Shown piece after piece: positions 45,500 to 60,190 of a stretch of DNA of 64,000 bases; position 1 is the first letter of the stretch, and each line of letters opens with the position of its first letter. Below the pieces are notes generated by a model that had not been told where the DNA came from, searched no databases, and saw nothing but the letters and a program-made list of their open reading frames with translations. The stretch covers positions 1,550,001 to 1,614,000 of the forward strand of contig NC_008268.1 in assembly GCF_000014565.1 (NCBI RefSeq). The letters are read 5' to 3'. The position numbers were made by a program, and so were the translations under genes. This DNA is from Rhodococcus jostii RHA1. GTDB lineage: Bacteria; Actinomycetota; Actinomycetes; Mycobacteriales; Mycobacteriaceae.

Positions 45500-46876
45500 C
45501 TAGTAGAACTGGGCGCCGGGTACGGCGGTGGGATCGTTCCGGACCTCGGCGGTGTTGGTCTCGCGGAGCTTCCACGCGCAGAGGAACGTGACCAGCCCCA
45601 TCAGTGCGACGAAGACGGCGACGAACGTGGTGGTTCCGGTCTTGGCGATCAGCGCGGTCATGATGAACGGAGTGCCGCCGCTCACCGTGATCGCCGCCAG
45701 CTGGTACGCGAGCGACGCCGCCGAGTATCGGACGTTGGGAGCGAACAGTTCACCCATGTATGCGGCGATCGGGCCGTAGGTCATGGACTGGAAGACGCTG
45801 CCGACCGTGACGGCGATGAAGAACAGCAGCAGGTTCCGGGTGTTGATCAGCCAGAAGTACGGGAACGCCCACACGATGATCATCGCCGCGCCGATCAGGA
45901 TCATCGGCCTGCGCCCGATCTTGTCGGACATGTGCCCGGACCACAGCACGACACCGACCGTGAGTCCGGCGCTGAGCAGCGAGATCGCGAGCAGGTCGTT
46001 GCGCTTCATTCCCAGTTCCGCGGTGCCGTAGCTGAGCACGCCGGCAATGGAGATGTAGAACAGGGAGTTGGTGGCCGCGAGCAGGCCGCAGCCGAGCAGG
46101 ATCTTGCGCCAGTGTTCCTTGATCGCCTCCGTCAACGGTGCGCGGACGACGGTCTTGTTCTTCTTCTGCGCCTCCTCCTGCAGGTCCCGGAATTCGGGGG
46201 TGTCCTCGACCTTGGTCTGGATGTAGAGCACCACCGGGAACAGCAGTGCGCTCGCGAAGAACGGGATCCGCCAGCCCCAGCTGAGGAACGCCTCGTTCGA
46301 GATCGCCGCCGTGGCGCCGAGGAATACGAGGTTGCCGAGCAGGACGCCGAAGGAGACGCCCATCTGGCCGAAGGTCCCGGAGAATCCCCGGCGCTTCGGG
46401 CTCGCCGATTCGGTCAGCAGCAGGACGATCCCACCCCATTGACCACCGCATGCGAGGCCCTGGACGAACCGCAGGGCCACCAGCAGGATCGGGGCCGCGA
46501 CGCCGATGGTCGCGGCACCCGGAAGGCAGCCGATGAGGAACGTCGCCAGTCCCATGAACAGCAGGCAGGTGACGACGGCCGGCTTGCGGCCGTACTTGTC
46601 GCCGAAGTGCCCGGCCACGAGGCCGCCGAGTGGGCGTGCGACGAAGCCCGCCCAGAATGTGCTGAACGAGAGCAGGGTGCCCATCAACGCCGACGAGTCG
46701 GGGAAGAAGACGTGGGGAAAGACCAGTGCCGCAGCGGTTCCGTACAGGAAGAAGTCGTACCACTCGATCGAGCTGCCGACGAGCCCCGCCGCAAGCAGTT
46801 TCCGATGTGCACGCTTGCGCGAGACGGCTGTGTCGCCGGCTGCGTCCTTACTCGGCTGCACCGCGGATGTAGTCAT
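45500..46876 (-). CDS. MFS metabolite:H+ symporter (MHS family)
   Basis: 458 residues with about 12 membrane helices. The N-terminal part has SSIEWYDFFLYGTAAALVF, the MFS signature GHFGDKYGRKP between helices 2 and 3, and a second such loop GHMSDKIGRRP. It belongs to the MHS group of carboxylate or metabolite symporters. Given its place beside the CoA-ligase clusters it may import an organic acid. Upstream (46877-47068) lies a TetR-type operator-like repeat and a divergent TetR gene. Confidence 0.9.
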   Translation of the reverse strand: MTTSAVQPSKDAAGDTAVSRKRAHRKLLAAGLVGSSIEWYDFFLYGTAAALVFPHVFFPDSSALMGTLLSFSTFWAGFVARPLGGLVAGHFGDKYGRKPAVVTCLLFMGLATFLIGCLPGAATIGVAAPILLVALRFVQGLACGGQWGGIVLLLTESASPKRRGFSGTFGQMGVSFGVLLGNLVFLGATAAISNEAFLSWGWRIPFFASALLFPVVLYIQTKVEDTPEFRDLQEEAQKKNKTVVRAPLTEAIKEHWRKILLGCGLLAATNSLFYISIAGVLSYGTAELGMKRNDLLAISLLSAGLTVGVVLWSGHMSDKIGRRPMILIGAAMIIVWAFPYFWLINTRNLLLFFIAVTVGSVFQSMTYGPIAAYMGELFAPNVRYSAASLAYQLAAITVSGGTPFIMTALIAKTGTTTFVAVFVALMGLVTFLCAWKLRETNTAEVRNDPTAVPGAQFY

Positions 46877-46931
46877 CCGATCACTCCTCGAGATAGGTCT
46901 TCGTATGGATGTGGGAATGAGACTTTTCAGA

Positions 46932-46971
46932 ACATGACGCCAACTTCAAGTCAGTGAGCGCTTGCTTAGTG
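46932..46971. promoter_or_regulatory. Operator-like region between MFS and tetR genes
   Basis: An imperfect palindrome AGTGAGC-GCTTGCT (46954-46967) is of the kind used by TetR repressors in actinobacteria. Next to it (46932-46952) is ACTTGAAGTTGGCGTCA on the minus strand, a motif with near copies at 41221-41241 and 49394-49410. Probable target of the TetR encoded at 47069. Confidence 0.45.
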
Positions 46972-47068
46972 TGTTTGAATAGCTGTGTGATGTCAATCAC
47001 TCGAGGGGATTGATCTTGCCGGATCCCGCCGGTGCGGACGAAGCTCGAAACGGCGGAGAGGACTACCG

Positions 47069-47695
47069 ATGACCGAATTGCGAGACGACGTGTCCGCGAC
47101 CGAGGAGCCGAGCCCGGGTCCGCCGACATCCGAGGAACGCCTGCTCCGGGCGGCGACGACACTGTTCTCCGACAAGGGTTTCGAAGCCACCCGCACGAGG
47201 GACATCTCCACCATGGCCGGGATGAGCCCCTCCGCGATGTACGTGCACTTCCCCTCCAAGGAGGATTTGCTGTTCCAGCTCGTCCGCCGGTCGAACGAGC
47301 GCGCGCTCGCGCTGGTGCTGGAGGCCGTGGCGCCGTTCACCGACCCCATCGACCGTGTCCGGGCCTTGGTTCGCGAATTCAGCATCATGCACGCCCGGAA
47401 CTTCCGGCGAGCGCGCATCGCCCAGTACGAGAGCAGGCATCTCTCCCCCGACCACCGCGAGGTGGTCGCCGAGACCCGGCTCCAGATCCGGGTCGCGGCA
47501 ATCCGGGAGGTGCAGAACGGGATCGATCAGGGGGTGTTCCTGATCCCCGACCCCCGCGTCGCGGTCCTGGCGATCATGTCGCTCGCGGTGGACATCTGCC
47601 GGTGGTACAGCCCCGACGGTGAATTCACACCGGAGGAGCTGGGCGACATCAACGCCGACCTCGTTCTGCGCATCCTCCACGCACCCGGCTACTGA
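47069..47695 (+). CDS. TetR-family transcriptional regulator
   Basis: 208 residues. N-terminal HTH (about 28-75): RLLRAATTLFSDKGFEATRTRDISTMAGMSPSAMYVHFPSKEDLLFQLV, the standard TetR_N signature; variable ligand-binding C-terminus. Divergent from the MFS gene over a 192-bp region with an operator-like repeat, so it likely controls the transporter and itself. Confidence 0.9.
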   Translation: MTELRDDVSATEEPSPGPPTSEERLLRAATTLFSDKGFEATRTRDISTMAGMSPSAMYVHFPSKEDLLFQLVRRSNERALALVLEAVAPFTDPIDRVRALVREFSIMHARNFRRARIAQYESRHLSPDHREVVAETRLQIRVAAIREVQNGIDQGVFLIPDPRVAVLAIMSLAVDICRWYSPDGEFTPEELGDINADLVLRILHAPGY

Positions 47696-47702
47696 CAGCT
47701 CC

Positions 47703-48341
47703 TCACACGCGGTCGGGGACGCGTAGCGCGTTCGTCCACATCCGCGCGAGTCCGGCGGTCAACTGCTCGAAGGTGAGTGATCTCCGCTCGCTCGGCGGTC
47801 CGACGAAATAGCTGTAGGCCATCCTTCCGACCATGGCGGACAACGCCTTCGACGTCAGCATCGGATCGAGCGACGCGTCGGCGAGACTGCGGTCCTGCAG
47901 ATCGGCGATCGCCCGCGCGTTCCGGCGGTAGAACGTCTCGTCCCGTGAGCGTTCCAGTTCACGGAATGCGGGGTCGACGTGCGCGACCTGCTCGAGCAGG
48001 GCCAGCAGTCGCGCATTCCGGCGGCACGCGTGCAGGTAGGCGCGGATGCTCGCCTCCACCACCGCGTGCACGTCGCCTTCGTCCGCGACCCGTCCCATGC
48101 CGGGATGCAGCAGGTCGTTCTGCGTGACCTCGACGACCGCCGCGAACACCTCCTCCTTGTTGGTGAAGTAGGTGTAGAACGATCCGGTCGAGAGTCCGGC
48201 CTCCTTGCTGATGTCGACGAGACGGGCGTCGAGGTACCCCTCCCGCTCGAACACCACCCGGGCGGCGGCGACGAGACGATCGCGGGTGCGGACGCCCCTG
48301 GCCGTGACCGGTGGCGTGGGTGCGATTCGCGGGCGCGACAT
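47703..48341 (-). CDS. TetR-family regulator linked to the lactonase
   Basis: 212 residues. N-terminal HTH: RDRLVAAARVVFEREGYLDARLVDISKEAGLSTGSFYTYFTNKEEVFAAVV (about 20-70). It starts 1 nt after the lactonase gene ends, so the two are one transcription unit. In R. erythropolis a TetR (QsdR) represses the lactonase gene qsdA; a similar pairing is suggested by this context but not proven. Confidence 0.88.
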   Translation of the reverse strand: MSRPRIAPTPPVTARGVRTRDRLVAAARVVFEREGYLDARLVDISKEAGLSTGSFYTYFTNKEEVFAAVVEVTQNDLLHPGMGRVADEGDVHAVVEASIRAYLHACRRNARLLALLEQVAHVDPAFRELERSRDETFYRRNARAIADLQDRSLADASLDPMLTSKALSAMVGRMAYSYFVGPPSERRSLTFEQLTAGLARMWTNALRVPDRV

Positions 48342-48342
48342 G

Positions 48343-49335
48343 TCAGTAGGGGTCGACGTTCTCGAAGTATCGCCGAGGCACCTCGACCAGCATCTCGGTG
48401 ATCATCTTCTCGGTGACACCCCGCTCGCGGACGTACGGCAGCACGTCGTTCTCGATGTGCAGGTAGTGCCACTGCGGGAGCGCGGCCATCAGGTTGGGGT
48501 CGATCCAGTCGATGTAGCAGGAGGCGTCCTGCGACAGGACCATCTGCCCCGCGAATCCCCGGCGGCACATCTCGACGAGCGTGTCGGCGCGGGCCTCGAA
48601 CGTCGTCTCGAGGTTGATCCCGAACCGGTCCATCCCGAGAACGAAGCCGGCCTCGGCGAGGCTCGTCAGATGCTCGATGTCGGTACTGTCTCCGCTGTGC
48701 CCGAGCACGATCCGGTCCGGCCGCACCCCCTCCTCGTCGCACATCACACGTTTGACGTGCACTCCGGCCTCACTGCCGGGGTGGGTGTGCACCGTGATGG
48801 GAACGCCCGTGCGCCGATGCGCCTTCGCGACCGCCCGCATCACCCGCTCGACACCGGGCGTGGGCCCCTGGTGGTCGATCGCGCACTTGAGCAGCCCCGC
48901 GCGAACCCCGGTGCCGGCGATCCCCTCTTCGATGTCCTTCACGAACATGTCCACCATCGGGTCGGGGACCTCGGCCCCCACGATCGCATCCAGCGCCGGA
49001 CCGCGGTAGTGGAAGAAGAACGGCACGTCGTCGTAGGTGTACAGCCCTGTTGCCGCAACGATGTTCAGCTCGGGAAGCTGTTCCGCGACCCGCTGGATGC
49101 GCGGGATGTACCGGCCGAGGCCGACGACGGTGGGGTCGACGATGGTCCGGACACCCTGCGCCGCCAGCGCGCGCAGCTTGGTGACGGCGTCGGCGACCCG
49201 CTCGTCCTCGCCCCCCCACTCGTCCGGGTAGTTCTGCTGCACGTCGGGCGTCAGCACGAACACGTGTTCGTGCATGTAGGTGCGTCCGAGTTCGGCGCTG
49301 TCGATCGGTCCGCGGACCGTGTTGACTTGGCTCAT
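48343..49335 (-). CDS. Phosphotriesterase-like lactonase (QsdA-like)
   Basis: 330 residues, amidohydrolase TIM barrel. Metal ligands read as His22 and His24 (MHEHVF), carboxylated Lys150 (GLLKCA), His183 (VHTHPG), His213 (LGHSGD) and Asp270 (LSQDAS). The GMDRFGIN segment fits the PLL lactonases rather than true organophosphate hydrolases. Such enzymes open acyl-homoserine lactones and other gamma/delta-lactones. Motif-level resemblance to Rhodococcus QsdA is strong. Co-transcribed with a TetR gene. Confidence 0.85.
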   Translation of the reverse strand: MSQVNTVRGPIDSAELGRTYMHEHVFVLTPDVQQNYPDEWGGEDERVADAVTKLRALAAQGVRTIVDPTVVGLGRYIPRIQRVAEQLPELNIVAATGLYTYDDVPFFFHYRGPALDAIVGAEVPDPMVDMFVKDIEEGIAGTGVRAGLLKCAIDHQGPTPGVERVMRAVAKAHRRTGVPITVHTHPGSEAGVHVKRVMCDEEGVRPDRIVLGHSGDSTDIEHLTSLAEAGFVLGMDRFGINLETTFEARADTLVEMCRRGFAGQMVLSQDASCYIDWIDPNLMAALPQWHYLHIENDVLPYVRERGVTEKMITEMLVEVPRRYFENVDPY

Positions 49336-49393
49336 ACAGACTCGCCCTCTCCGGGTGTGACCGTCGTCATACTCCCGAGCTCAGCGTAGAGCT

Positions 49394-49410
49394 AACTTGA
49401 ACCTGACGTC
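49394..49410. promoter_or_regulatory. Shared ACTTGAA...TGACGTCA element upstream of the lactonase
   Basis: ACTTGAACCTGACGTCA on the plus strand, about 60-75 nt before the lactonase start. Near copies occur before the SDR-headed array (41221-41241) and before the MFS gene (46932-46952). It may be a regulator-binding site common to these promoters. Confidence 0.35.
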
Positions 49411-49415
49411 AACAT

Positions 49416-50082
49416 TTATTCCGGAGTGAATGCACCCCGAGCCAGACGGAATCCGACGTCGTCGATGCGATAGGTCGGGTGACTGCGCCGACGCACGGAG
49501 GCACGGCAACTCCAGTGCTCGTCGAACCACCCACCGCCGCGCAGTACCCGGTACGTGCCGTACACCTCGGGGTCGTACAGATCCCAGCACCACTCCCACA
49601 CATTGCCCAGGGTGTCGTGCAGGCCCCAGGCGTTCGGCTGCTTCCCCCCCCACATCCCGCGACCGGCCGTCGGAGTTGCCGCGGTACCACGCAATCGCGT
49701 CGAGCGGGCCGTACCGCGGACCCGTGGTGCCCGCCCGGCAGGCGCGTTCCCATTCCGCCTCGGCCGGAAGCCGGTACCCGTCGGCCGTGGTGTCCCACAC
49801 GACGTCGTTGCTGGTTACGCGATAGGCAGCGCCGAGCCCGGCGCGCTCGGACAGGGTGTTGCAGAACAGGATCGCGTCCCGCCACGACACTCCGTCGACC
49901 GGCAGCCGCGTTCCCCGCGTCGTGCCCGGCCACTCGCCGGTGATCTCGGCGTACTCTCCCTGCGTCACAGGGTGGACGGCGACCTCGAAGGCATTCAGCT
50001 CAACGCTCCAGCTGCGGGTGGTCCGCCGATCCGACAGCGTGATCTCCCCGGCCGCGACGGCGATCATCGGGCCGCTATCCAC
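49416..50082 (-). pseudogene. Formylglycine-generating-enzyme-like protein, frameshifted
   Basis: Two overlapping frames together give a ~221-residue FGE-sulfatase/SUMF1-domain protein: the first part has VHPVTQGEYAEITG, LPVDGVSWRDAILFCN, YRLPAEAEWERACRAG; the second has NAWGLHDTLGNVWEWCWDLY, RVLRGGGWFDEHW, SCRASVRR and DDVGFRLAR. The frames join at a run of eight Gs (49645-49652); seven would keep the reading frame. Either a true slip mutation or a sequencing error. GTG start at 50082 overlaps the LEH-like gene. FGE-type proteins oxidise a Cys in sulfatases or, in other members, act in different oxidations; the role here is unknown. Confidence 0.75.
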
Positions 50083-50476
50083 CGCCGGCAGCAGCCTGGA
50101 TCGGTGCCATGTCGAAGTAGTCGCGCCAGGTGGTGATCTTGCCGCCGGTGATCTCGAAGACCCCGACGACGGGCAGTTCGACGACGTTGCCGTTCAGCGT
50201 GAACACGTCGATCCGCTCGTTCATCACCACCCCGCTCGATTCCTCGGCGTTGGGGCTCTGACCGCCATCGGTGACCTGCCGGTGCACACGGAAGTCGATG
50301 CCGCCGAACGCCGCGATGAAGCCGGCGACGAACTCGCGGATCGCGTCACGCCCGATGACGGGTTCCATCGGAATGTTGTGGTAAACGGCATCTTCCGCGA
50401 AGTACTCCGCGATTTTCGCCGGATCGGGCTCGATCCACTCGGCGCAGAATTGGGTGACCAGTTGATCCGGAGTCAT
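50075..50476 (-). CDS. Limonene-1,2-epoxide-hydrolase-like protein (NTF2/SnoaL fold)
   Basis: 133 residues, cone-shaped NTF2 fold. The catalytic triad of LEH enzymes can be read: Arg and Asp in MNERIDVF and the second Asp in TTWRDYFDM. LEH-family enzymes open epoxides; the mycobacterial member Rv2740 (EphG) acts on cholesterol 5,6-oxide, notable given the KstR-like sites nearby. ATG with GGAG 8 nt upstream, 4-nt overlap with the CysQ fusion gene. Confidence 0.82.
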   Translation of the reverse strand: MTPDQLVTQFCAEWIEPDPAKIAEYFAEDAVYHNIPMEPVIGRDAIREFVAGFIAAFGGIDFRVHRQVTDGGQSPNAEESSGVVMNERIDVFTLNGNVVELPVVGVFEITGGKITTWRDYFDMAPIQAAAGGG

Positions 50477-51603
50477 CGGTTCTCCCTTTCGATCGCGGAC
50501 GGTTCGATGATGGCCATGACGGACTGGATCGCCCCGGCCGGGATGTCGAAGTGTTCCGTGATCCGGACGGACGTCACCTCGGTGGGCGTGGCGCCGAGAT
50601 CGAGCACGAACCGCGCCACCACGTTGTCACCCCACTCGTGGAAGGAGAGTTCGCGCACGGCCTGGATGGCCTGATACTGCAGGCCGTTCTCGAGTTCGTC
50701 CCGGATGAAGGCCCCCGATTCGCCCGTATGCTGCCCGTTCTCCACGCGCCATGCATTGTCCGCGAGACGCACCTTGGTGGCGTCGTGGCTGACCAGCGCA
50801 TCGATATAGGCCCTGGCCATCGCGACCCGGCCGCTGTCGGCCGTGTCGGTGGCGTGTGTCGCGATCGCGGCGAGCAGCGGCCGAGCCAGCTCCGGTCGGC
50901 AGATCAGGAGGTCGGGCAGGTAGGGGTGGGACTCGTTGTAATCCAACGGAGTTCCGTCGATCCGCGAGCAGTGCAGGCCCGCAGCCTCGGCGACGCCGAC
51001 GGGGGCGGCCGAGTCCCATTCCCACTGCCCACCCGCGTGGATGTAGGCGTCCACGTCCCCACGAAGCACGGCCATCGCCTTCGCTCCGGCCGAACCCATG
51101 GTGGTGACCTCGGCACCGATCTCCGTCGCGACGGCGTCGACGAAGGCGGGCGGCCTGCTCGCGGACACGACGATCCGTGGTCGTGCCGGGAGCTGTTCGG
51201 TATGCACCGCGTGGCTGTCGTCGTCACTGGCATACACCGCACCCAGTGCCGGTTGCGCGACCGCTGCCGCCGTGATGCCCCGGCCGCGTTCCCACAGTGC
51301 GACGTGCACCGCCCAATCCGAGTGACCGGGCAGTCCGTACTCCTTGGAACCGTCGAGCGGGTCGATGATCCACACCCGGGAACTCTCCAGCCGCGACCGG
51401 TCGTCGGCGGACTCCTCGGAGAGGATCGCGTCGTCGGGTCGCTCCGCGGAGAGCTTGCCGAGAATGAACGCGTCGGCGGCGACGTCGCCCCGCCTGCCCA
51501 GTTCACGACCGTCCGCCGATCCGAGTCCCGCGGTGCGGATGTCCAGCAGCAGGGCACCGGCACCGGAGGCGATGTCGGCCGCGAGTCGTGCGTCAGTGAT
51601 CAC
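50473..51603 (-). CDS. CysQ-like 3'-phosphoadenosine phosphatase fused to an NTF2-like domain
   Basis: 376 residues. Residues 1-~252 are an inositol-monophosphatase-fold CysQ: metal motifs SEESADD (62-68), DPLDGSKEYG (81-90, Asp81/Asp84) and WEWDSAAP (194-201, Asp197). CysQ removes the 3'-phosphate of PAP left after sulfate transfer. Residues ~255-376 are an added alpha+beta domain that looks SnoaL/NTF2-like. CysQ normally ends near residue 265, so this fusion is unusual. GTG start overlaps the cysNC stop by 11 nt. Confidence 0.85.
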   Translation of the reverse strand: MITDARLAADIASGAGALLLDIRTAGLGSADGRELGRRGDVAADAFILGKLSAERPDDAILSEESADDRSRLESSRVWIIDPLDGSKEYGLPGHSDWAVHVALWERGRGITAAAVAQPALGAVYASDDDSHAVHTEQLPARPRIVVSASRPPAFVDAVATEIGAEVTTMGSAGAKAMAVLRGDVDAYIHAGGQWEWDSAAPVGVAEAAGLHCSRIDGTPLDYNESHPYLPDLLICRPELARPLLAAIATHATDTADSGRVAMARAYIDALVSHDATKVRLADNAWRVENGQHTGESGAFIRDELENGLQYQAIQAVRELSFHEWGDNVVARFVLDLGATPTEVTSVRITEHFDIPAGAIQSVMAIIEPSAIERENR

Positions 51604-53443
51604 GTCTCAACAATTCCATAATTCTCTCGGCTTGTTCGGTCGGCGTGCCGTCCCCGGGCCGGAGGACGAGTTCGGCGTGCTCCGGGGCCTCGTACGGGTC
51701 GTCGACCCCGGTGAACCCGGTGATCTCCCCCGCGCGGGCTTTCGCGTACATGCCCTTGGGGTCCCGCGCCTCGCACTGCTCCACCGGCGTGTCGACGAAC
51801 ACCTCGACGAAGTCGAGCCCGGCAGCCCGGTGCTGCTCCCGGACGCGGTCCCGGTCGGCGCGGTACGGGCTGATCAGGGACGCGATCGCGACCACCCCGG
51901 AGTCCGCGAGCAGTTGTGCCACGGCGCCGACGCGGCGCACGTTCTCGGCGCGGTCCTCGGCACTGAAACCGAGGTCGGCGTTCAGACCGTGACGCAGGTT
52001 GTCGCCGTCCAGCCGGTAGGCGGGCACCCCGGCCGCGACGAGACGTCGTTCGAGTTCCACCGCGACCGTCGACTTTCCCGACGCCGACAGTCCCGTCAGC
52101 CACACCGTGCGACCCCGCGTCGCCCGCTCGTCCCGCGAGACGGCCGCGGCGTGCCACACCACCTTGGAACGCGACAGCGTCGGCCCGGTGATCATGCCGG
52201 CGGCGACGGTGTTGTGGGTCGACTCGTCGACGAGGATGAAACTGCCCGTCACGTGGTTGCGGCGGTACGGGTCGAACATCAGCGGCTGCGACGTCCTCAA
52301 CTGGACACGGCCGATCTCGTTGAGCGAGAGCGACTGTGTGGACTCGTCGCGGTGCAGGGTGTTCACGTCGAGGCGGTAGTCGAGCCGCACGACGGAAGCC
52401 CTGGTGGCGCGGGTGGTGTGCAGCAGCGTGTACCGCGCGTCCGGCGTCAGCGAGGACTGTTCGCTGAACCAGCAGACCATCGCGTCGAGTTCCTGCCCGA
52501 CGAGCGGACGGTTGTTGGGGCGGCACAGCACGTCTCCGCGACCCACGTCCAGCTGGTCGGCGAGCTGCACGCACACCGCCGACGGTGCGAACGCCTCGTC
52601 GAGGCGGGTTCCGCCGGGACCCCAGATGGCGCTGACGGTGGAGGTGAATCCGGACGGCAGCACCACCACCTCGTCGCCCGGCTTGAACACGCCGCTGGCG
52701 ACCGTGCCCGCGTATCCGCGGAAATCGTGCAGCGCGGAATCGGTCCGGCGCTGCGGCCGGACCACGTACTGCACCGGGAACCGCGCGTCGATGAGGTTGC
52801 GGTCGGATGCCACGTGGACCTGCTCGAGGTAGTGCAGCAGCGACGCGCCCCCGTACCAGGCCATGTTGGCGGTGCGCTGCGCGATGTTGTCGCCGCGCAG
52901 CGCCGACACCGGGATGAACGTCAGGTCGTGGACCTCGAGTTTGATCGCGAACTGCCGGAACTCCTCCTTGATCTCCTCGAACCGTTCCTCGGACCATCCG
53001 ACGAGATCCATCTTGTTGACGCACAGCACGAGGTGGGGAATTCCGAGGAGGCTGGCGATGAACGCGTGGCGGCGCGTCTGCTCGAGGATCCCCTTGCGGG
53101 CGTCGACGAGGATGAGGGCCAGGTCGGCGGTGGACGCGCCGGTCACCATGTTCCGGGTGTACTGCTCGTGCCCCGGCGTGTCCGCGATGATGAACTTGCG
53201 GTGCGGTGTGGCGAAATAGCGGTGCGCGACGTCGATGGTGATGCCCTGTTCGCGTTCGGCGCGCAGACCGTCGGTGAGCAGTGCCAGGTCGGCGTGCTCG
53301 TCGCCCCGCTCGCGGCTGGTGCGTTCGACCGCCTCGAGCTGATCCTCGAAGATCGCCTTGGAGTCGTACAGCAGCCGGCCGATGAGGGTGGACTTGCCGT
53401 CGTCGACGCTGCCCGCGGTCGCGACCCGCAGTAGCTGCGGCAT
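51593..53443 (-). CDS. cysNC: Bifunctional sulfate adenylyltransferase GTPase subunit / APS kinase (CysN-CysC)
   Basis: 616 residues. CysN part (1-~440): GTPase motifs GSVDDGKST (11-19), DTPGHE (88-93), NKMD (143-146) and EF-Tu-like beta barrels. CysC part (443-616): P-loop GLSASGKST (451-459) and LDGDNLRHGLN, then IASLISPYRADRD. With CysD it makes APS from sulfate and ATP, and the kinase domain converts APS to PAPS, the sulfate donor. The ATG at 53443 overlaps the cysD stop by 1 nt. Confidence 0.96.
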   Translation of the reverse strand: MPQLLRVATAGSVDDGKSTLIGRLLYDSKAIFEDQLEAVERTSRERGDEHADLALLTDGLRAEREQGITIDVAHRYFATPHRKFIIADTPGHEQYTRNMVTGASTADLALILVDARKGILEQTRRHAFIASLLGIPHLVLCVNKMDLVGWSEERFEEIKEEFRQFAIKLEVHDLTFIPVSALRGDNIAQRTANMAWYGGASLLHYLEQVHVASDRNLIDARFPVQYVVRPQRRTDSALHDFRGYAGTVASGVFKPGDEVVVLPSGFTSTVSAIWGPGGTRLDEAFAPSAVCVQLADQLDVGRGDVLCRPNNRPLVGQELDAMVCWFSEQSSLTPDARYTLLHTTRATRASVVRLDYRLDVNTLHRDESTQSLSLNEIGRVQLRTSQPLMFDPYRRNHVTGSFILVDESTHNTVAAGMITGPTLSRSKVVWHAAAVSRDERATRGRTVWLTGLSASGKSTVAVELERRLVAAGVPAYRLDGDNLRHGLNADLGFSAEDRAENVRRVGAVAQLLADSGVVAIASLISPYRADRDRVREQHRAAGLDFVEVFVDTPVEQCEARDPKGMYAKARAGEITGFTGVDDPYEAPEHAELVLRPGDGTPTEQAERIMELLRRDH

Positions 53444-54360
53444 CAGAAGTACCCTTCCTTCTTGCGGTCTTCCATGCCGGCCTCGGAGATCCGGTCGTCG
53501 GCCCGGGTGGCCCCGCGCTCGGTCAGCCTGCTCGCGGCGACCTCGGTGACCACGGCCGCGGCGGTGGTTGCCGACGACTCGACGCAGCCCGTGCACGTGG
53601 CGTCGCCGACGGTCCGGAAGCGGACGAGGGCCTCGTACGGCTCGTCACCGGGGAGCAGGGTCAGGAACCGGGTGTGCGCCAACAGCATTCCGTCGCGGGG
53701 CACGACCTCCCTGCGGTGCGCGTAGTACAGGGGCGGCAGTTCGATCTTCTCCTCGCTGATGTACTGCCAGATGTCGAGTTCGGTCCAGTTGGACAGCGGG
53801 AACACCCGGATGTGCTCCCCCTTGCGGTGCCTGCCGTTGTAGAGGCTCCACAACTCGGGGCGCTGCGCCCGCGGATCCCACTGCCCGAACTCGTCGCGGA
53901 AGCTGAACACCCGCTCCTTCGCGCGGGCCTTCTCCTCGTCGCGGCGGGCGCCGCCGAAGATGGCGTCGAATCCGTTGTCCCGGATCCCGCGCAGCAGCGC
54001 CGTGGTCTGGAGACGGTTGCGGCTGGCCCGCGGACCCGTCTCCTCGCTGACGCGGCCGGCGTCGATGTCGTCCTGCACGCTGGACACCACCATCCGCAGG
54101 TCGAGGCGGTCGACGGTCCGGTCGCGGAATTCGATGACCTCGTCGAAGTTGTGGCCGGTGTCGACGTGCATGACGGCGAACGGGAGCGGTGCGGGCCAGA
54201 ACGCCTTGGCGGCCACGTGGAGCATCACCACCGAGTCCTTGCCGCCGGAGAACAGCAGAACCGGACGCTCGAACGTGGCGGCCACTTCTCGGAAGATGTG
54301 CACGGCTTCGGCTTCGAGCGCGCCGAGATGGGACAACTCGTACACGGGCGGTGCGGTCAT
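53443..54360 (-). CDS. cysD: Sulfate adenylyltransferase subunit 2
   Basis: 305 residues, PAPS-reductase-like adenylyl-transfer fold. PP-loop LLFSGGKDSVVML (36-48), then MHVDTGHNFDEVIEFRD, and a C-terminal TVGDATCTGCVES segment. Partner of CysN in ATP sulfurylase. First gene of the cysD-cysNC-cysQ-LEH operon, downstream of a palindrome (54395-54414) and a KstR-like site (54445-54458). Confidence 0.96.
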   Translation of the reverse strand: MTAPPVYELSHLGALEAEAVHIFREVAATFERPVLLFSGGKDSVVMLHVAAKAFWPAPLPFAVMHVDTGHNFDEVIEFRDRTVDRLDLRMVVSSVQDDIDAGRVSEETGPRASRNRLQTTALLRGIRDNGFDAIFGGARRDEEKARAKERVFSFRDEFGQWDPRAQRPELWSLYNGRHRKGEHIRVFPLSNWTELDIWQYISEEKIELPPLYYAHRREVVPRDGMLLAHTRFLTLLPGDEPYEALVRFRTVGDATCTGCVESSATTAAAVVTEVAASRLTERGATRADDRISEAGMEDRKKEGYF

Positions 54361-54394
54361 GGGCGACTCCTCGTCGCGAGTGCCTTACCGGTCA

Positions 54395-54414
54395 CTGGTC
54401 CATATTTGGACCAG
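54395..54414. promoter_or_regulatory. Palindrome with ATATTT centre upstream of cysD
   Basis: CTGGTCC-ATATTT-GGACCAG, perfect 7-bp arms, centred about 44 nt before the cysD ATG. The core GGTCC-ATATTT-GGACC is nearly the same as the site at 55458-55473 on the other side of the iclR gene, so both are candidate sites for that IclR regulator. Confidence 0.55.
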
Positions 54415-54444
54415 CTCGGTCGAAAATGATTGCACCTCCGAGAA

Positions 54445-54458
54445 TAGAACGTGTTTCA
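54445..54458. promoter_or_regulatory. KstR-type operator before cysD
   Basis: TAGAACGTGTTTCA fits the published KstR consensus TNNAACNNGTTNNA at every fixed position. KstR is the TetR-family repressor of cholesterol catabolism in mycobacteria and rhodococci. The site is about 85 nt upstream of the cysD ATG. Confidence 0.65.
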
Positions 54459-54479
54459 GATTGCGGTCAATGCCCGGTG

Positions 54480-55403
54480 TCACCGCGGCCGGCGGCCGCC
54501 CACCTCCGCCGTGATCGCGTCCGCGGCCGCAGCGAGAGCCTTGCCCCGCCGCGCGATCTCCGACGGCGCGAGTTCGGCGCCCACATAGAGCGTCAGGACC
54601 ATCGCCTGATGCCCCTCGGGGTCGTACGTCGGCGCGGCGATGAGACTGACGGGGTGCGGCGCAGCGGGGTCCGCGCGTTCGGCGTCCAGGTACACCCGCT
54701 CCCCCAGGCTGGACACCATCTCACCGAGCACGTCGCGCAACTCCGGCGGCAGGTCGTGCGCGGCAACCCCGGCCATGAGCGTGTGCAGGCGCTGACCGAC
54801 CGGAGTGAGCGTCTCCACGAGATACCCGGCCCGGGAACACTCGTCCACCACGGTGCGCAACCGGTCGCGGTCGAGACGCACCGGCAGGGTCGGCTCCCGG
54901 CGCAACCACGACTGCAGCGCGTCGTCGCCGTCCCACAGCACGTACATCAGGCCGACGGGCGGCGCGAACGGGTACATCTCCCCGACCTTGGCGGCGGCCC
55001 GCACACCCGGCGGACTCGTCAGCTCCAGGACGGTGATGCGGTCGCCGACCACCGCCGACGCCGTGCACGTCGTCCGGAACTCCTCGCTGAGCACGGCGAG
55101 ATGCCTGCGCGCCACCGGCCCGGCCGCGAATCCTTGCTGCGCCGCGCGGCCGGCCGCGATGAGGGCGGGCCCGAGGCCGTACGTCTTGGTGGCGGGATCC
55201 CGGACGAGGTAGCCGCCGCGGGCCAGTTCGGTGAGGATTCCCAGGCAGGTGGGCTTGCTGATGTCGAGCTGCCGGGCCAGCTCCGACAACCCGAAGCGGT
55301 GCTCCTTGCGCGCCACCAGGAAGTCGAGCACCTGCACCACACGTTCGGTGGGCGGCGACCGTCGGCCCTGCGCCCGGTCAGGCGTCTCGTCCTCGTGCCC
55401 CAT
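54480..55403 (-). CDS. IclR-family transcriptional regulator
   Basis: 307 residues. N-terminal winged HTH (about 18-75: TERVVQVLDFLVARKEHRFGLSELARQLDISKPTCLGILTELARGGYLVRD) and a GAF-like IclR ligand domain (about 85-265). ATG at 55403 with GGAG 7 nt upstream. It lies between the cysD operon and the divergent DUF1214-SDR-sulfotransferase operon, and near-identical palindromes flank it, so it probably regulates both. A KstR-type site is 12 nt upstream of its start. Confidence 0.9.
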   Translation of the reverse strand: MGHEDETPDRAQGRRSPPTERVVQVLDFLVARKEHRFGLSELARQLDISKPTCLGILTELARGGYLVRDPATKTYGLGPALIAAGRAAQQGFAAGPVARRHLAVLSEEFRTTCTASAVVGDRITVLELTSPPGVRAAAKVGEMYPFAPPVGLMYVLWDGDDALQSWLRREPTLPVRLDRDRLRTVVDECSRAGYLVETLTPVGQRLHTLMAGVAAHDLPPELRDVLGEMVSSLGERVYLDAERADPAAPHPVSLIAAPTYDPEGHQAMVLTLYVGAELAPSEIARRGKALAAAADAITAEVGGRRPR

Positions 55404-55414
55404 TGACCACTCCT

Positions 55415-55428
55415 TAGAACACGTTCTA
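55415..55428. promoter_or_regulatory. KstR-type operator, perfect palindrome
   Basis: TAGAACACGTTCTA, a perfect 14-bp palindrome and exact match to TNNAACNNGTTNNA. It lies between the iclR start (55403) and the divergent DUF1214 gene (55497), so it can control both directions. Confidence 0.75.
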
Positions 55429-55457
55429 TTGTCGGTTCATCAACGTTCTACCACGCA

Positions 55458-55473
55458 GGTACATATTTGTACC
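55458..55473. promoter_or_regulatory. Palindrome with ATATTT centre upstream of the DUF1214 gene
   Basis: GGTAC-ATATTT-GTACC, centred 32 nt before the GTG of the DUF1214 gene and 44 bp from the KstR-type site. Shares centre and outer bases with the site at 54395-54414. Confidence 0.55.
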
Positions 55474-55496
55474 ACCCCCATCGTGAGGAGCACGGT

Positions 55497-56663
55497 GTGC
55501 TGACCGACCCATTCGCCGACGCCATGGCCGAGGCCGAGAAACTGATCGAGGGCGCCCCCCACATCCGCACCGAACAGGATCTGCTGGAGGGCTACCAGTA
55601 CCTCGCCGGCGGCATTCTCGCCACGACGCACGCGGCCTGGGCCACCGAACAGTCGCACCCGACGTTCATCTCGGGCACCGGCCCGTACATGAAGATGGGC
55701 CTCGACAACCCCGACACGCTGTACTTCGGCGCGCGGATCAACGACGACGTCGAATACGTGGTCACCGGGCGGCGCGGCACCACCGCGGACCTGAGCTTCC
55801 AGGTGCTGAGCGGAAACTACACGGCCGCACACGTACCCGGCAGTGTCACCGCGTTCGACGACCGCGAGATCGACATCGCCCCCGACGGCTCGTTCGAGGT
55901 GCGATTCGGCCCCGACGAGAGCTCAGGCAGGCGCAACTACTTCACCCTCGCGCCGGGTTCGTCGCAACTGGTGGTCCGGGAGGTGTACAGCGACTGGAGC
56001 CAGCAGCGCGGCACCATCCGCATCGCCAGGGCGGATACGACGGGTACTCCTCCGGGTCCGCTCACCCGGGAAGCCGTCGAGAAGCGTTACGCCCGTGCGG
56101 GCAGAGCCCTCGTCTCCCGGGTCAAGACGTGGCTGCAGTTCCCGGAGTGGTTCTATCTGAACCTGCCGGTGAACACGATGACCGAACCGCGGCTGACGCC
56201 GGGCGGCCTCGCCACGCAGTACTCGTCCGTCGGGCACTACGAACTCGCCGACGACGAGGCCATCGTCATCACCGTCCCGAAAGCCGATGTGCCCTACCAG
56301 GGTTTTCAGCTGGGCAGCATGTGGTACATCTCCCTCGACTACGTCAATCACCAGACCTCGCTGAACGTCGCCCAGTCGCAGGTGGATCCGGACGACCACA
56401 TCCGTCTCGTCGTCAGCGAGCGCAACCCCGGCGTGGCCAACTGGATCGCCACCGTCGGGCACCTCCGCGGGTACCTGCAGTTCCGCTGGCAACGCGTCTC
56501 CCGCGAACTGACCCCGGCCGACGGGCCCCGCATCGAGGTCGTGAAGTTCGACGAGATCCATCGGGCGCTGCCGTACTACGACTCCAACAAGATCTCGCCC
56601 GAGGACTTCGCCGCACGCATCGCCGCACGCCAGGCCGCGGTCGCGGACCGGATGCTGGGGTGA
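55497..56663 (+). CDS. DUF1214 domain protein
   Basis: 388 residues, soluble, no signal peptide. The C-terminal half carries a DUF1214-type segment (VPYQGFQLGSMWYISLDYVNHQTSLN, DDHIRLVVSERNPGVANWIATVGHLRGYLQFRWQ). The N-terminal half (TFISGTGPYMKMGLDNPDTLYFGARIN) resembles proteins annotated in sterol and lipid clusters of mycolata. Function unknown. The GTG at 55497 is chosen because GAGGAG lies 6 nt before it; other upstream starts run into the palindrome. First gene of the DUF1214-SDR-sulfotransferase operon. Confidence 0.8.
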   Translation: MLTDPFADAMAEAEKLIEGAPHIRTEQDLLEGYQYLAGGILATTHAAWATEQSHPTFISGTGPYMKMGLDNPDTLYFGARINDDVEYVVTGRRGTTADLSFQVLSGNYTAAHVPGSVTAFDDREIDIAPDGSFEVRFGPDESSGRRNYFTLAPGSSQLVVREVYSDWSQQRGTIRIARADTTGTPPGPLTREAVEKRYARAGRALVSRVKTWLQFPEWFYLNLPVNTMTEPRLTPGGLATQYSSVGHYELADDEAIVITVPKADVPYQGFQLGSMWYISLDYVNHQTSLNVAQSQVDPDDHIRLVVSERNPGVANWIATVGHLRGYLQFRWQRVSRELTPADGPRIEVVKFDEIHRALPYYDSNKISPEDFAARIAARQAAVADRMLG

Positions 56664-56668
56664 CCGCC

Positions 56669-57457
56669 ATGACTGCTCCGCAACTCCTGCAGGACAGGGT
56701 GGTCGTCATCTCCGGCGTCGGACCGGCCCTGGGCCGCACCCTCGCCGTCCGCTGCGCCGACGCCGGCGCGGACGTGGTGCTGGCCGCCCGCACCGCATCG
56801 CGTCTCGACGAGGTTGCCAAAGAGATCATCGCCGTCGGCCGCCGCGCGGTGACCGTCCCGACCGACATCACGGATCAGGCATCGGCCGAGAATCTGGTGT
56901 CCGCTGCCGTCGACGCGTACGGCAAGGTCGACGTGCTGATCAACAACGCGTTCTCGGTTCCGTCGATGAAACCGCTGGCCCGCACGGAATTCGACCACCT
57001 CCGCAGCAGTTTCGAGCTGACCGTGATCGGGGCGCTGCGGCTGACCCAGCTGTTCACCCCCGCGCTCGCCGAAGCGAACGGAGCGGTGGTGAACATCAAC
57101 TCGATGGTGCTCCGGCACTCACAGGAGCGGTACGGCAGCTACAAGATGGCCAAATCCGCCCTGCTCGCGACGTCGCAGTCGCTTGCCACGGAACTGGGAC
57201 CGCAGGGTATCCGCGTCAATTCCGTTGCTCCCGGCTATATCTGGGGAGACACGCTGAAGCAGTACTTCACGCACCAGGCCGAGAAGTACGGGACGACCGT
57301 CGAGCAGATCGACGAGCACACCGCCGCGAACACCGATCTGAAGAGGCTCCCCACCACCGAGGAGGTGGCCGACGCCGTGATCTTCCTGGCCTCACCGTTG
57401 GCGAGCGCCGTGACCGGCCAGTGCCTCGACGTCAACTGCGGCGAATTCCATCATTAG
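56669..57457 (+). CDS. Short-chain dehydrogenase/reductase of the sulfotransferase operon
   Basis: 262 residues: cofactor loop SGVGPALGRTLAVRCADAGA (variant of TGxxxGxG), AARTAS, NNAF in place of NNAG, catalytic YKMAK and a GQCLDVNCG C-terminus. ATG at 56669; an in-frame GTG at 56660 forms a GTGA overlap with the upstream stop and is an alternative. Between the DUF1214 and sulfotransferase genes, it may make or oxidise the hydroxyl used by the sulfotransferase; inference. Confidence 0.87.
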   Translation: MTAPQLLQDRVVVISGVGPALGRTLAVRCADAGADVVLAARTASRLDEVAKEIIAVGRRAVTVPTDITDQASAENLVSAAVDAYGKVDVLINNAFSVPSMKPLARTEFDHLRSSFELTVIGALRLTQLFTPALAEANGAVVNINSMVLRHSQERYGSYKMAKSALLATSQSLATELGPQGIRVNSVAPGYIWGDTLKQYFTHQAEKYGTTVEQIDEHTAANTDLKRLPTTEEVADAVIFLASPLASAVTGQCLDVNCGEFHH

Positions 57458-57476: not shown

Positions 57477-58634
57477 ATGAGCGAGCGCACCACCGTCGGC
57501 ACGGTCGAGGACCTTCACGCCTCGGCCACCCGTCTGACCGGCCTCACCGACTTCGGCGTGGACGACTACACCGAGGCCCTCGGCGTCCTGCTGGACTCGT
57601 ATCACGTCGACGAGAAACTGACCCCGCTCGGCAGCAAGGTGTCCCGGGTGTTCCTCCGCGGCGCCCTGGTGGCGCGGCTGCTGAGCGAGGCGGCGTGGAA
57701 GCAGAACCCCGAGCACGCGGACGTGCGGATCGAGCGGCCGATCTTCGTCACCGGACTTCCCCGCACGGGGACGACGGCGCTGCACCGGCTGCTCACCGCG
57801 GACCCGTCGCATCAGGGCCTGGAGATGTGGCTGACCGAGATGCCCCAGCCCCGGCCGCCGCGCGAGACGTGGGAATCGAATCCCGTGTTCCAGAAGATCG
57901 AGGAGGGCTTCAGCCGCCACCACATCGAACGCCCCGAATTCATGGGCGTGCACTACATGTCGGCGAGCGAGGTCGAGGAGTGCTGGCAACTGCTGCGGCA
58001 GACGTTCAAATCGATCTCCTACGAGTGCCTGGCCTCTCTCCCGACGTACTCCCGCTGGCTGGAAGGCCAGGACTGGACCAACGCCTATCAGCGGCACATG
58101 AAGAACTTGCAGCTGATCGGACTTCCCGATCGGGACCGCCGCTGGGTGCTGAAGAATCCCAGCCACCTGTTCGCGCTCGACGAGTTGCTCGCGGTGTATC
58201 CGGATGCCCTGATCGTCCAGACCCACCGGCCGCCGTGCACGATCGTCCCGTCGGTGTGCAGCCTGGCGGAACAGGCGACGGAAGGGTGGTCGGAGAAGTT
58301 CCGGGGCAGCGTCATCGGGGAGAGCCAGCTCGAGCTGTGGGCGCGGGGCCTGGAGCAGTTCACCGCGGCCCGCGCCCGGCACGACCCCGCTCAGTTCATC
58401 GACGTCGACTACCACGATTTCGTGGCCGATCCGCTCGGCACTGTCGAAGGGGTCTACACGCACTTCGGGCTCGATCTCAGCTCCTCGGCCCAGTCGGCGA
58501 TGGAGGCGATGCACGCCGAAAGTCGCAGCGGCGACCGCCGCCCGTCCCACAAGTACACACTCGAGGAATTCGGGCTGACGGCCGAGCAGGTGGACGAGAG
58601 ATTCGCCAACTATCAGTTCAGCGCGACCAGCTGA
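57477..58634 (+). CDS. PAPS-dependent sulfotransferase (Sulfotransfer_3 type)
   Basis: 385 residues. The 5'-phosphosulfate-binding loop is PIFVTGLPRTGTTALHRLL (88-106). Later segments WVLKNPSHLFALDELLAVYPDALIVQTHRPP and the C-terminal Arg/Lys-rich RRPSHKYTLEEFGL are as in mycobacterial Stf-type enzymes. Transfers sulfate from PAPS to a hydroxyl of an unknown acceptor, probably a lipid or sterol-like molecule judging by neighbours. Its last 17 nt overlap the convergent phosphatase gene. Confidence 0.9.
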   Translation: MSERTTVGTVEDLHASATRLTGLTDFGVDDYTEALGVLLDSYHVDEKLTPLGSKVSRVFLRGALVARLLSEAAWKQNPEHADVRIERPIFVTGLPRTGTTALHRLLTADPSHQGLEMWLTEMPQPRPPRETWESNPVFQKIEEGFSRHHIERPEFMGVHYMSASEVEECWQLLRQTFKSISYECLASLPTYSRWLEGQDWTNAYQRHMKNLQLIGLPDRDRRWVLKNPSHLFALDELLAVYPDALIVQTHRPPCTIVPSVCSLAEQATEGWSEKFRGSVIGESQLELWARGLEQFTAARARHDPAQFIDVDYHDFVADPLGTVEGVYTHFGLDLSSSAQSAMEAMHAESRSGDRRPSHKYTLEEFGLTAEQVDERFANYQFSATS

Positions 58635-59277: not shown

Positions 59278-59581
59278 GAGGGCACCCTAACCAGCGACTT
59301 CGCCTTCGCGCGCGGGCAATTCCACTGTCCGAGCGGTCTGTTTCCGACGTTCATCTGCCCGTGGCGAGTCGTTCACCCCTCGGACTCCTCGCAGTCACCT
59401 CGAATCACGAACGCCCAGCTCACCGCGGTCGACGCCGGAGTGCCGCCACGTATGCGATCTGCGTCACTTTCCGGGTGGGCGCCCCGCCGTCGCCGGGGGT
59501 TCGGAACCTCCCCGGCACAGGCCGTCTGCCCACAGCAGACAAGTGCCGGTCCGGCGCCGACGCGGCGGTAGTAATGGAGGC
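59278..59581. other. Intergenic region upstream of the clpP pair (304 bp)
   Basis: No gene is visible. It contains a sequence resembling the ClgR/PopR box GTTCGC-Y-N5-GCG at 59298-59312, with one mismatch, and otherwise nothing I can name. It must hold the promoters of the divergent phosphatase and clpP genes. Confidence 0.4.
59298..59312 (+). promoter_or_regulatory. Candidate ClgR/PopR box
   Basis: CTTCGC-C-TTCGC-GCG against the published Streptomyces consensus GTTCGC-Y-N5-GCG (first base differs). It is 270 nt before the clpP start, so its use depends on where the promoter lies. Confidence 0.25.
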
Positions 59582-60190
59582 ATGACCACAGCCGCACTAC
59601 CCGACCTGAACTACCGCGACCTGTTGGCGGACAGACTGTTTCGCCAGCGCACGATCCTCCTCACCGGCGAGGTGGACGACGCCATGGCCGAGCGGGCCTG
59701 CTCCGAACTGGTGCTGCTCGCGGCCGCCGACCCCAAACGCGACATCGTGCTGTACATCAATTCCCCGGGCGGCTCCGTCTTCGCCGGCCTGGCCATCTAC
59801 GACACGATGAAGCTCGTTCCGAACGACGTGGTCACCGTCGCCATGGGTTTCGCCGCCAGCATGGGCCAGGTACTGCTGTGCTCGGGCACCCACGGCAAGC
59901 GAATCAGCCTGGCGCACAGCCGCATCATGATGCACCAGCCCTCGGCGGGCATCGGCGGCACCGCCGTCGACATCGCCATCCAGGCCGAGAGCCTCGAACG
60001 GATGAAACGACAGTCGCAGGAGATCCTCGCCGCCGAGACGGGGCATCCGGTCGAGCAGATCGCCGAGGACAGCGACCGGGACCGGTGGTTCACCGCCGAC
60101 GAGGCCCGTGACTACGGGATCGTCGACCGCGTCGTGTCCTCGTTCGCCGAGATCGCCCCGCACACCACCGCCCCGAGAATTGGATTGTGA
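59582..60190 (+). CDS. clpP: ATP-dependent Clp protease proteolytic subunit (first of pair)
   Basis: 202 residues, S14 peptidase. Triad Ser93 ([11 protein letters not shown]), His118 ([10 protein letters not shown]) and Asp167 (SDRDRW). Assembles with a second ClpP and a Clp ATPase to degrade proteins. GGAGG lies 1-5 nt before the ATG (close). The pair, with a convergent PopR/ClgR-type regulator, resembles Streptomyces clpP3-clpP4 rather than the essential clpP1P2 next to clpX; no clpX or tig is seen here. Confidence 0.94.

Follow-up and report, generated by a model that had tools for sequence, protein, structure and literature searches.

Within the 64,000-nucleotide stretch of Rhodococcus jostii RHA1 analyzed here (contig NC_008268.1, positions 1,550,001 to 1,614,000; hereafter the window), the genes for synthesis of the sulfate donor 3'-phosphoadenosine 5'-phosphosulfate (PAPS), cysD and cysNC, are separated by an IclR-family regulator gene from an operon encoding a DUF1214-like protein, a short-chain dehydrogenase/reductase (SDR) and a sulfotransferase orthologous to STF1 of Mycobacterium tuberculosis. 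The locus is probably a sulfation cassette that belongs to the KstR regulon and is gated by sterols, and its own IclR regulator would add a second gate. At the level of sequence, sulfation looks switched together with sterol use in this bacterium and many of its relatives. A first-pass annotation of this DNA had proposed KstR-type operators ahead of both the PAPS-synthesis genes and the sulfotransferase operon; this proposal is supported by matrix score, promoter position, the presence of kstR, conservation in relatives, and the lack of sites at those unlinked cysD copies that were examined.

Both 14-mers reported in that annotation are present, and they are the sole exact TNNAACNNGTTNNA matches in the window, where 0.12 would be expected and none of 100 shuffles reached two. 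The description of the DUF1214-side site as a perfect palindrome holds for its two 6-bp arms but not for the central AC, which is not self-complementary. To score the sites, a symmetric KstR matrix was built from the 47 sites in Table 3 of Kendall 2007 (PMC1995591), which themselves score 18.0–32.2. When the window was scanned, the third-best place reached 6.6, against 23.4 and 23.5 for the two sites; the top score in 2 Mb of random sequence was 15.8. In the whole genome (9,702,737 bases in four contigs, 7,804,765 of them in the contig with the window), the loose consensus was found at 67 places versus 30 for a reversed control and, being this common, is weak evidence by itself, while the form with one perfect half-site, TAGAACNNGTTNNA, was counted 19 times forward and 16 times reverse against 2 and 2 for the control. 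The two-site observation is thus confirmed as real and beyond chance. The abundance of the loose consensus is what would speak for chance matches or functionless relics, an explanation that we nonetheless consider extremely improbable in view of the scores, the count of the half-perfect pattern, and the conservation and spacing described below.

The genome encodes KstR, as three of the four strongest matches in the PDB are named KstR, and a KstR-type site overlaps the start region of the kstR open reading frame. High-scoring sites are also found next to hsaA (NF045629 over cut-off) and next to the gene of a steroid 3-ketoacyl-CoA thiolase (NF005889 over cut-off), and another site is beside a gene whose product has a ChsH2-type OB-fold domain. 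Among 31 hand-picked genomes searched, 29 contain a KstR of at least 60% identity; L101 and L112 have only relatives of 38–40%. The sites could instead belong to a different TetR-family repressor that recognizes this motif, in which case the locus would answer to a different ligand. Two KstR paralogues of 49% and 32% identity, plus weaker TetR matches, are indeed encoded in the genome, the 49% one being an example of such a repressor, and the Actinomadura locus (L112) combines a strong site (22.8) with a KstR relative of only 40% identity. Against this, the motif is present at the start region of the kstR gene, the matrix derives from KstR sites, and among the loose-consensus matches listed (contig 1 up to 6.84 Mb) none lies within 75 kb of either paralogue; we therefore regard a different repressor as improbable and KstR as the favored occupant.

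Two further places in this genome were recorded alongside. At L032 (G000:C1:7372861 and 7372992), two KstR-type sites scoring 29.3 and 23.9 are flanked by a gene of the wax ester/DGAT family (TIGR02946 over cut-off) and one for a LipQ-like esterase (below cut-off). At L027 (G000:C1:5357259), a site scoring 28.6 lies between an NRAMP-type metal transporter gene and an HsaA-like oxygenase gene (below the HsaA cut-off).

Conservation was assessed in two samples of relatives. The main sample comprises 80 named loci, taken as the best among 567 confirmed ones, and leans to close relatives, with R. wratislaviensis, R. opacus and R. koreensis nearest. The second sample took, per genus, the best match of up to three first-listed genomes, own genome excluded, and retained 50 of 124 matching genomes (161 searched); 10 of its 50 loci overlap the main sample and were removed by hand for the non-overlap counts. 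A KstR-type site scoring at least 14 was found upstream of linked cysD in 56 of 64 main-sample loci and upstream of the DUF1214 gene in 67 of 80; 73 of 80 have one at either place. The second sample gave 19 of 24 measured loci for cysD and 28 of 50 for DUF1214 (non-overlap, 14/17 and 20/40); in this sample, 16 loci lack both iclR and cysD next to the DUF gene, and 3 of them carry a site. Sites at this threshold total 150 in 1.30 Mb of relatives, and only 27 fall outside the two promoter regions. Eight of these 27 are located 4.7–6.7 kb downstream in eight mycobacterial loci; in the two tested (L073, L109), kshA was found beside them, just past the sulfotransferase gene. Unlinked cysD copies behaved differently: in ten hand-picked relatives (nine with a match), 0 of 13 such copies had a site (best score 2.8), whereas both linked copies returned by the same search carry one. 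Likewise, the two other cysD copies of the R. jostii genome, one followed by a CysN without an APS kinase and the other by a CysNC, had no site in their shared 17.5-kb stretch (best score 5.9).

Judged by position and by a conserved TANNNT hexamer, the KstR-type operators lie within predicted promoters, over the -10 region. On the cysD side, 84 bp separate the site at 54445-54458 from the ATG of cysD at 54360 (minus strand), and 21 bp lie between it and the stop codon of iclR. For the site at 55415-55428, the ATG of iclR (at 55403, minus strand) is 11 bp away, and the distance to the GTG start codon at 55497 is 68 bp. TANNNT is present at the gene-facing end of the operator in 56/56 cysD and 64/66 DUF1214 promoters (distinct sites, 40/40 and 51/53) and at the mirrored end in 0/56 and 4/66. 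Since the matrix does not extend to the sixth base of the hexamer, the conservation of that base cannot stem from the scan. In Kendall 2007 (PMC1995591), the kstR site is likewise placed over a putative -10 region.

Each KstR-type site is accompanied by a second inverted repeat, GGTNCATATTTGNACC, which has no exact match in the 9.7-Mb genome other than these two, one beside each site. The two-operator account of the first-pass annotation is supported for the KstR pair but missed this second pair, whose presence tracks the local iclR gene. Allowing up to three mismatches, the palindrome was detected upstream of DUF1214 in 68 of 68 main-sample loci with iclR and in 2 of 12 without; the two exceptions are L118, a cut-off contig starting 38 bases before the gene, from whose record iclR may be missing, and L082, a three-mismatch match. 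The second sample repeats this distribution (30/30 with iclR and 0/20 without; non-overlap, 21/21 and 0/19). Palindrome-type places elsewhere in the 1.30 Mb of relatives number 26. At cysD without iclR, the palindrome was seen weakly in 1 of 5 loci, and second-sample locus L184 has a one-mismatch copy at cysD with no iclR within the fetched 2.6 kb. By its co-occurrence with iclR, the palindrome is probably the operator of the local IclR protein, placed both at the regulator's own promoter and at those of its putative targets. Its distance from the KstR site is also constrained. In the window, the palindromes lie 44–47 bp (centre to centre) from the KstR sites, towards each gene. Among DUF1214 promoters with both elements (n = 60, the window included, as in all spacing counts), the centre spacing is 44 bp in 42 and 42–46 bp in 56, with the best palindrome match upstream instead in 3; cysD promoters with both elements (n = 30) show spacings of 43–50 bp.

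IclR-family proteins can be activators or repressors, and the local one might activate, or might not bind the palindrome at all, leaving KstR as the sole repressor here. The palindromes found without a neighboring iclR (L118, weakly L082, and at cysD in L184) fit this alternative. We consider it unlikely, as the palindrome tracks iclR closely and an activator would be poorly placed where the palindrome stands, downstream of the inferred -10 element; repression by the IclR protein is the reading we prefer. As a separate observation, a half-site, TTCTACCAC / TTGTACCAC (55446-55454 and 55467-55475), is repeated at a distance of 21 bp, and its second copy extends into the IclR palindrome. Comparable half-sites are visible in relatives, and more than one dimer of the IclR protein may therefore bind here.

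Several results weigh against a conserved dual control by KstR and IclR. The 80 loci, as the best 80 of 567, are mutually related, and the matrix threshold of 14 for site calls was picked after the scores were seen. Of ten column-permuted matrices, eight gave no matches in the two promoter regions, but the other two gave 9 and 11. The site is absent upstream of DUF1214 in 13/80 loci and of cysD in 8/64 (L047, L050, L051, L053, L059, L064, L068 and L121). Neither site was found in 7/80, namely L064 (Nocardia cyriacigeorgica), L068 (R. maanshanensis), L095, L101, L115, L116 and the truncated L118, and five Mycobacteroides-type loci have the cysD site only. The palindrome occurs at cysD in 31 of the 59 loci with both iclR and cysD and is absent in 28. 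Finally, the effector-binding domain usual at the C-terminus of IclR regulators was not among the Pfam matches of the protein at E ≤0.001 or among its NCBIfam matches over cut-off.

Features of the sulfation locus, with positions in the window.
Feature	Positions	Strand	Evidence
CysQ-like PAP(S) phosphatase gene	50473..51603	-	PF00459 101.3 bits (cut-off 27); overlaps cysNC end
cysNC (ATP sulfurylase GTPase subunit fused to APS kinase)	51593..53443	-	PF00009 158.4 bits and PF01583 APS_kinase 227.4 bits, both above cut-off
cysD (sulfate adenylyltransferase small subunit)	53443..54360	-	TIGR02039 451.8 bits (cut-off 396.6)
GGTCCATATTTGGACC, candidate operator of local IclR, upstream of cysD	54397..54412		inverted repeat, exact GGTNCATATTTGNACC
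TATTCT, -10-like hexamer (TANNNT), overlaps gene-facing end of cysD KstR-type site	54441..54446	-	TANNNT in relatives
TAGAACGTGTTTCA, candidate KstR-type operator of cysD-cysNC	54445..54458		matrix score 23.4
iclR, IclR-family regulator	54480..55403	-	PF09339 HTH_IclR 31.3 bits (cut-off 22)
TAGAACACGTTCTA, candidate KstR-type operator of DUF1214-SDR-STF1 operon	55415..55428		matrix score 23.5
TATTGT, -10-like hexamer facing DUF1214 gene	55427..55432	+	TANNNT in relatives
GGTACATATTTGTACC, candidate operator of local IclR, upstream of DUF1214	55458..55473		inverted repeat, exact GGTNCATATTTGNACC
DUF1214-like protein	55497..56663	+	GTG start at 55497
Short-chain dehydrogenase/reductase (SDR)	56669..57457	+	PF13561 167.6 bits; NF005909 430.2 bits (cut-off 258)
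Sulfotransferase, M. tuberculosis STF1 orthologue	57477..58634	+	sequence and fold comparison

By profile matches, the parts of a CysDNC PAPS synthase, i.e., CysD, the CysN GTPase and adenosine 5'-phosphosulfate (APS) kinase, are complete at the locus. All six genes are present in 58 of the 80 loci, and all 58 keep the gene order of the window. The sulfotransferase shares 61% identity with STF1 of M. tuberculosis (PDB 2zq5) over 346 aligned residues. Its TGL.R.GTT loop and residues R251 and S259 are invariant across 16 sequences. We take these to be the PAPS-binding residues, and STF1 to be Rv3529c. The DUF–SDR–STF gene order is the same as that of Rv3531c–Rv3529c; by sequence, fold and operon order the enzyme is a member of the STF1 orthologue group, with a predicted PAPS-dependent activity. 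The IclR protein shows weak full-length-type NCBIfam matches to IclR subfamilies. For the phosphatase, the top NCBIfam match, TIGR01331 CysQ, scores 92.4 bits, below the equivalog cut-off of 228.8, and the gene is accordingly named CysQ-like only. Of the 64 loci that have CysNC, 32 have CysQ no more than 400 nt from where CysNC ends. The CysQ-like protein also has a C-terminal extension of ~110 residues, for which the sole Pfam hint is SnoaL_2 (E 0.078, below cut-off); in Nocardia loci matching this protein, the alignment spans only ~240–255 residues.

Near the CysQ-like gene, positions 49381-50082 (minus strand) encode a protein resembling the formylglycine-generating enzyme/sulfatase-modifying factor family (PF03781 62.5 bits, profile positions 8–150 of 255); the family-like reading seems to exit the frame at a G run at ~49644-49651, and the gene may be broken or misread. 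Upstream in the window, at 45500-49335 (minus strand), are genes for a major facilitator superfamily transporter, a TetR regulator and a phosphotriesterase-family protein. On the other side, a low-molecular-weight phosphatase-like gene (PF01451; 58618-59277, minus strand) is convergent to the sulfotransferase gene and overlaps its end, and a ClpP-like gene (59543-60190) comes next.

For the working of the cassette, we propose that in both promoters the -10 element is masked by KstR, which would leave the DNA once sterol catabolism makes its ligand; in M. smegmatis, the KstR inducer is given as 3-oxo-4-cholestenoic acid (PMC4881515). The IclR protein would bind the palindrome inside the transcribed leader and act as a roadblock repressor until its own ligand appears. 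KstR over the -10 element and IclR in the leader would together make PAPS supply and STF1 depend on two inputs. With both repressors off, CysD and CysNC would build a dedicated PAPS pool, STF1 would transfer sulfate from PAPS, and CysQ would clear the resulting 3'-phosphoadenosine 5'-phosphate (PAP). Our best guess for the acceptor is a hydroxylated sterol-derived or SDR-processed lipid. In its full form, this amounts to an AND gate, by which a private PAPS pool is made and spent only when sterol catabolism coincides with an IclR-sensed metabolite, and the target sulfated by STF1 is an intermediate of sterol catabolism or a lipid made from one. We offer this version tentatively, as more speculative than the cassette itself.

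A close to even prospect attaches to a related possibility, in which KstR control is real but the sulfated product is chemically unrelated to sterols: KstR would signal a lipid-rich niche, and STF1 would modify an envelope lipid or another metabolite. The fold comparison of STF1 favors no substrate, and Kendall 2007 (PMC1995591) suggests a regulon wider than cholesterol use. On the other hand, kshA lies just past the sulfotransferase gene in the two mycobacterial loci examined, and a published table lists Rv3531c as a predicted requirement for growth on cholesterol (PMC6429209). If the AND-gate reading is true, the orphan STF1 of M. tuberculosis would gain a substrate linked to sterols. The locus makes the question of what STF1 sulfates directly testable in this soil bacterium. 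Sulfate activation, usually seen as sulfur or stress physiology, would be tied to sterol catabolism through a conserved promoter design, and a candidate operator pair is supplied for an IclR regulator.

Part of this control has precedent. According to Kendall 2007 (PMC1995591), the Rv3531c/Rv3532 site of the STF1 operon was positive in an electrophoretic mobility shift assay and the MSMEG_5932/5933 site by quantitative reverse-transcription PCR; the operator of the KstR regulon of M. tuberculosis and M. smegmatis is the same as here. The available text contains no mention of cysD or 'sulf', and we found no literature report of KstR coupling to a dedicated PAPS synthase (CysD-CysNC). The earlier suggestion that PAPS synthesis is under a sterol repressor is supported by sequence, but KstR control of the STF1 operon was already reported in mycobacteria, and the PAPS synthase is the new part.

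CysDNC of M. tuberculosis comprises the same PAPS-making enzymes, with CysQ acting on PAP and PAPS (PMC3141025); in the available text of that source it responds to stress and sulfur supply, and neither KstR nor cholesterol appears. Here, by contrast, the synthase is one of three cysD sets, and it bears KstR-type and IclR-type sites. With STF1 (PDB 2zq5), the operon shares kshA as a neighbor in two mycobacterial loci, although in R. jostii it lies far from the genome's main steroid cluster and adjoins its own PAPS genes. The IclR-family SRTF2, described as sterol-induced and encoded beside a ketosteroid dehydrogenase gene (PMC7062782, available text), is likewise an IclR regulator linked with steroid genes; its neighborhood differs from the iclR locus here, and the two are likened by gene context only. 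Compared with the mycobacterial KstR regulon, the locus joins a PAPS synthase and iclR to the operon, with their own KstR-type and IclR-type sites, and appears to be a variant of that regulon in which a known target operon has been combined with a dedicated PAPS synthase and a second regulator.
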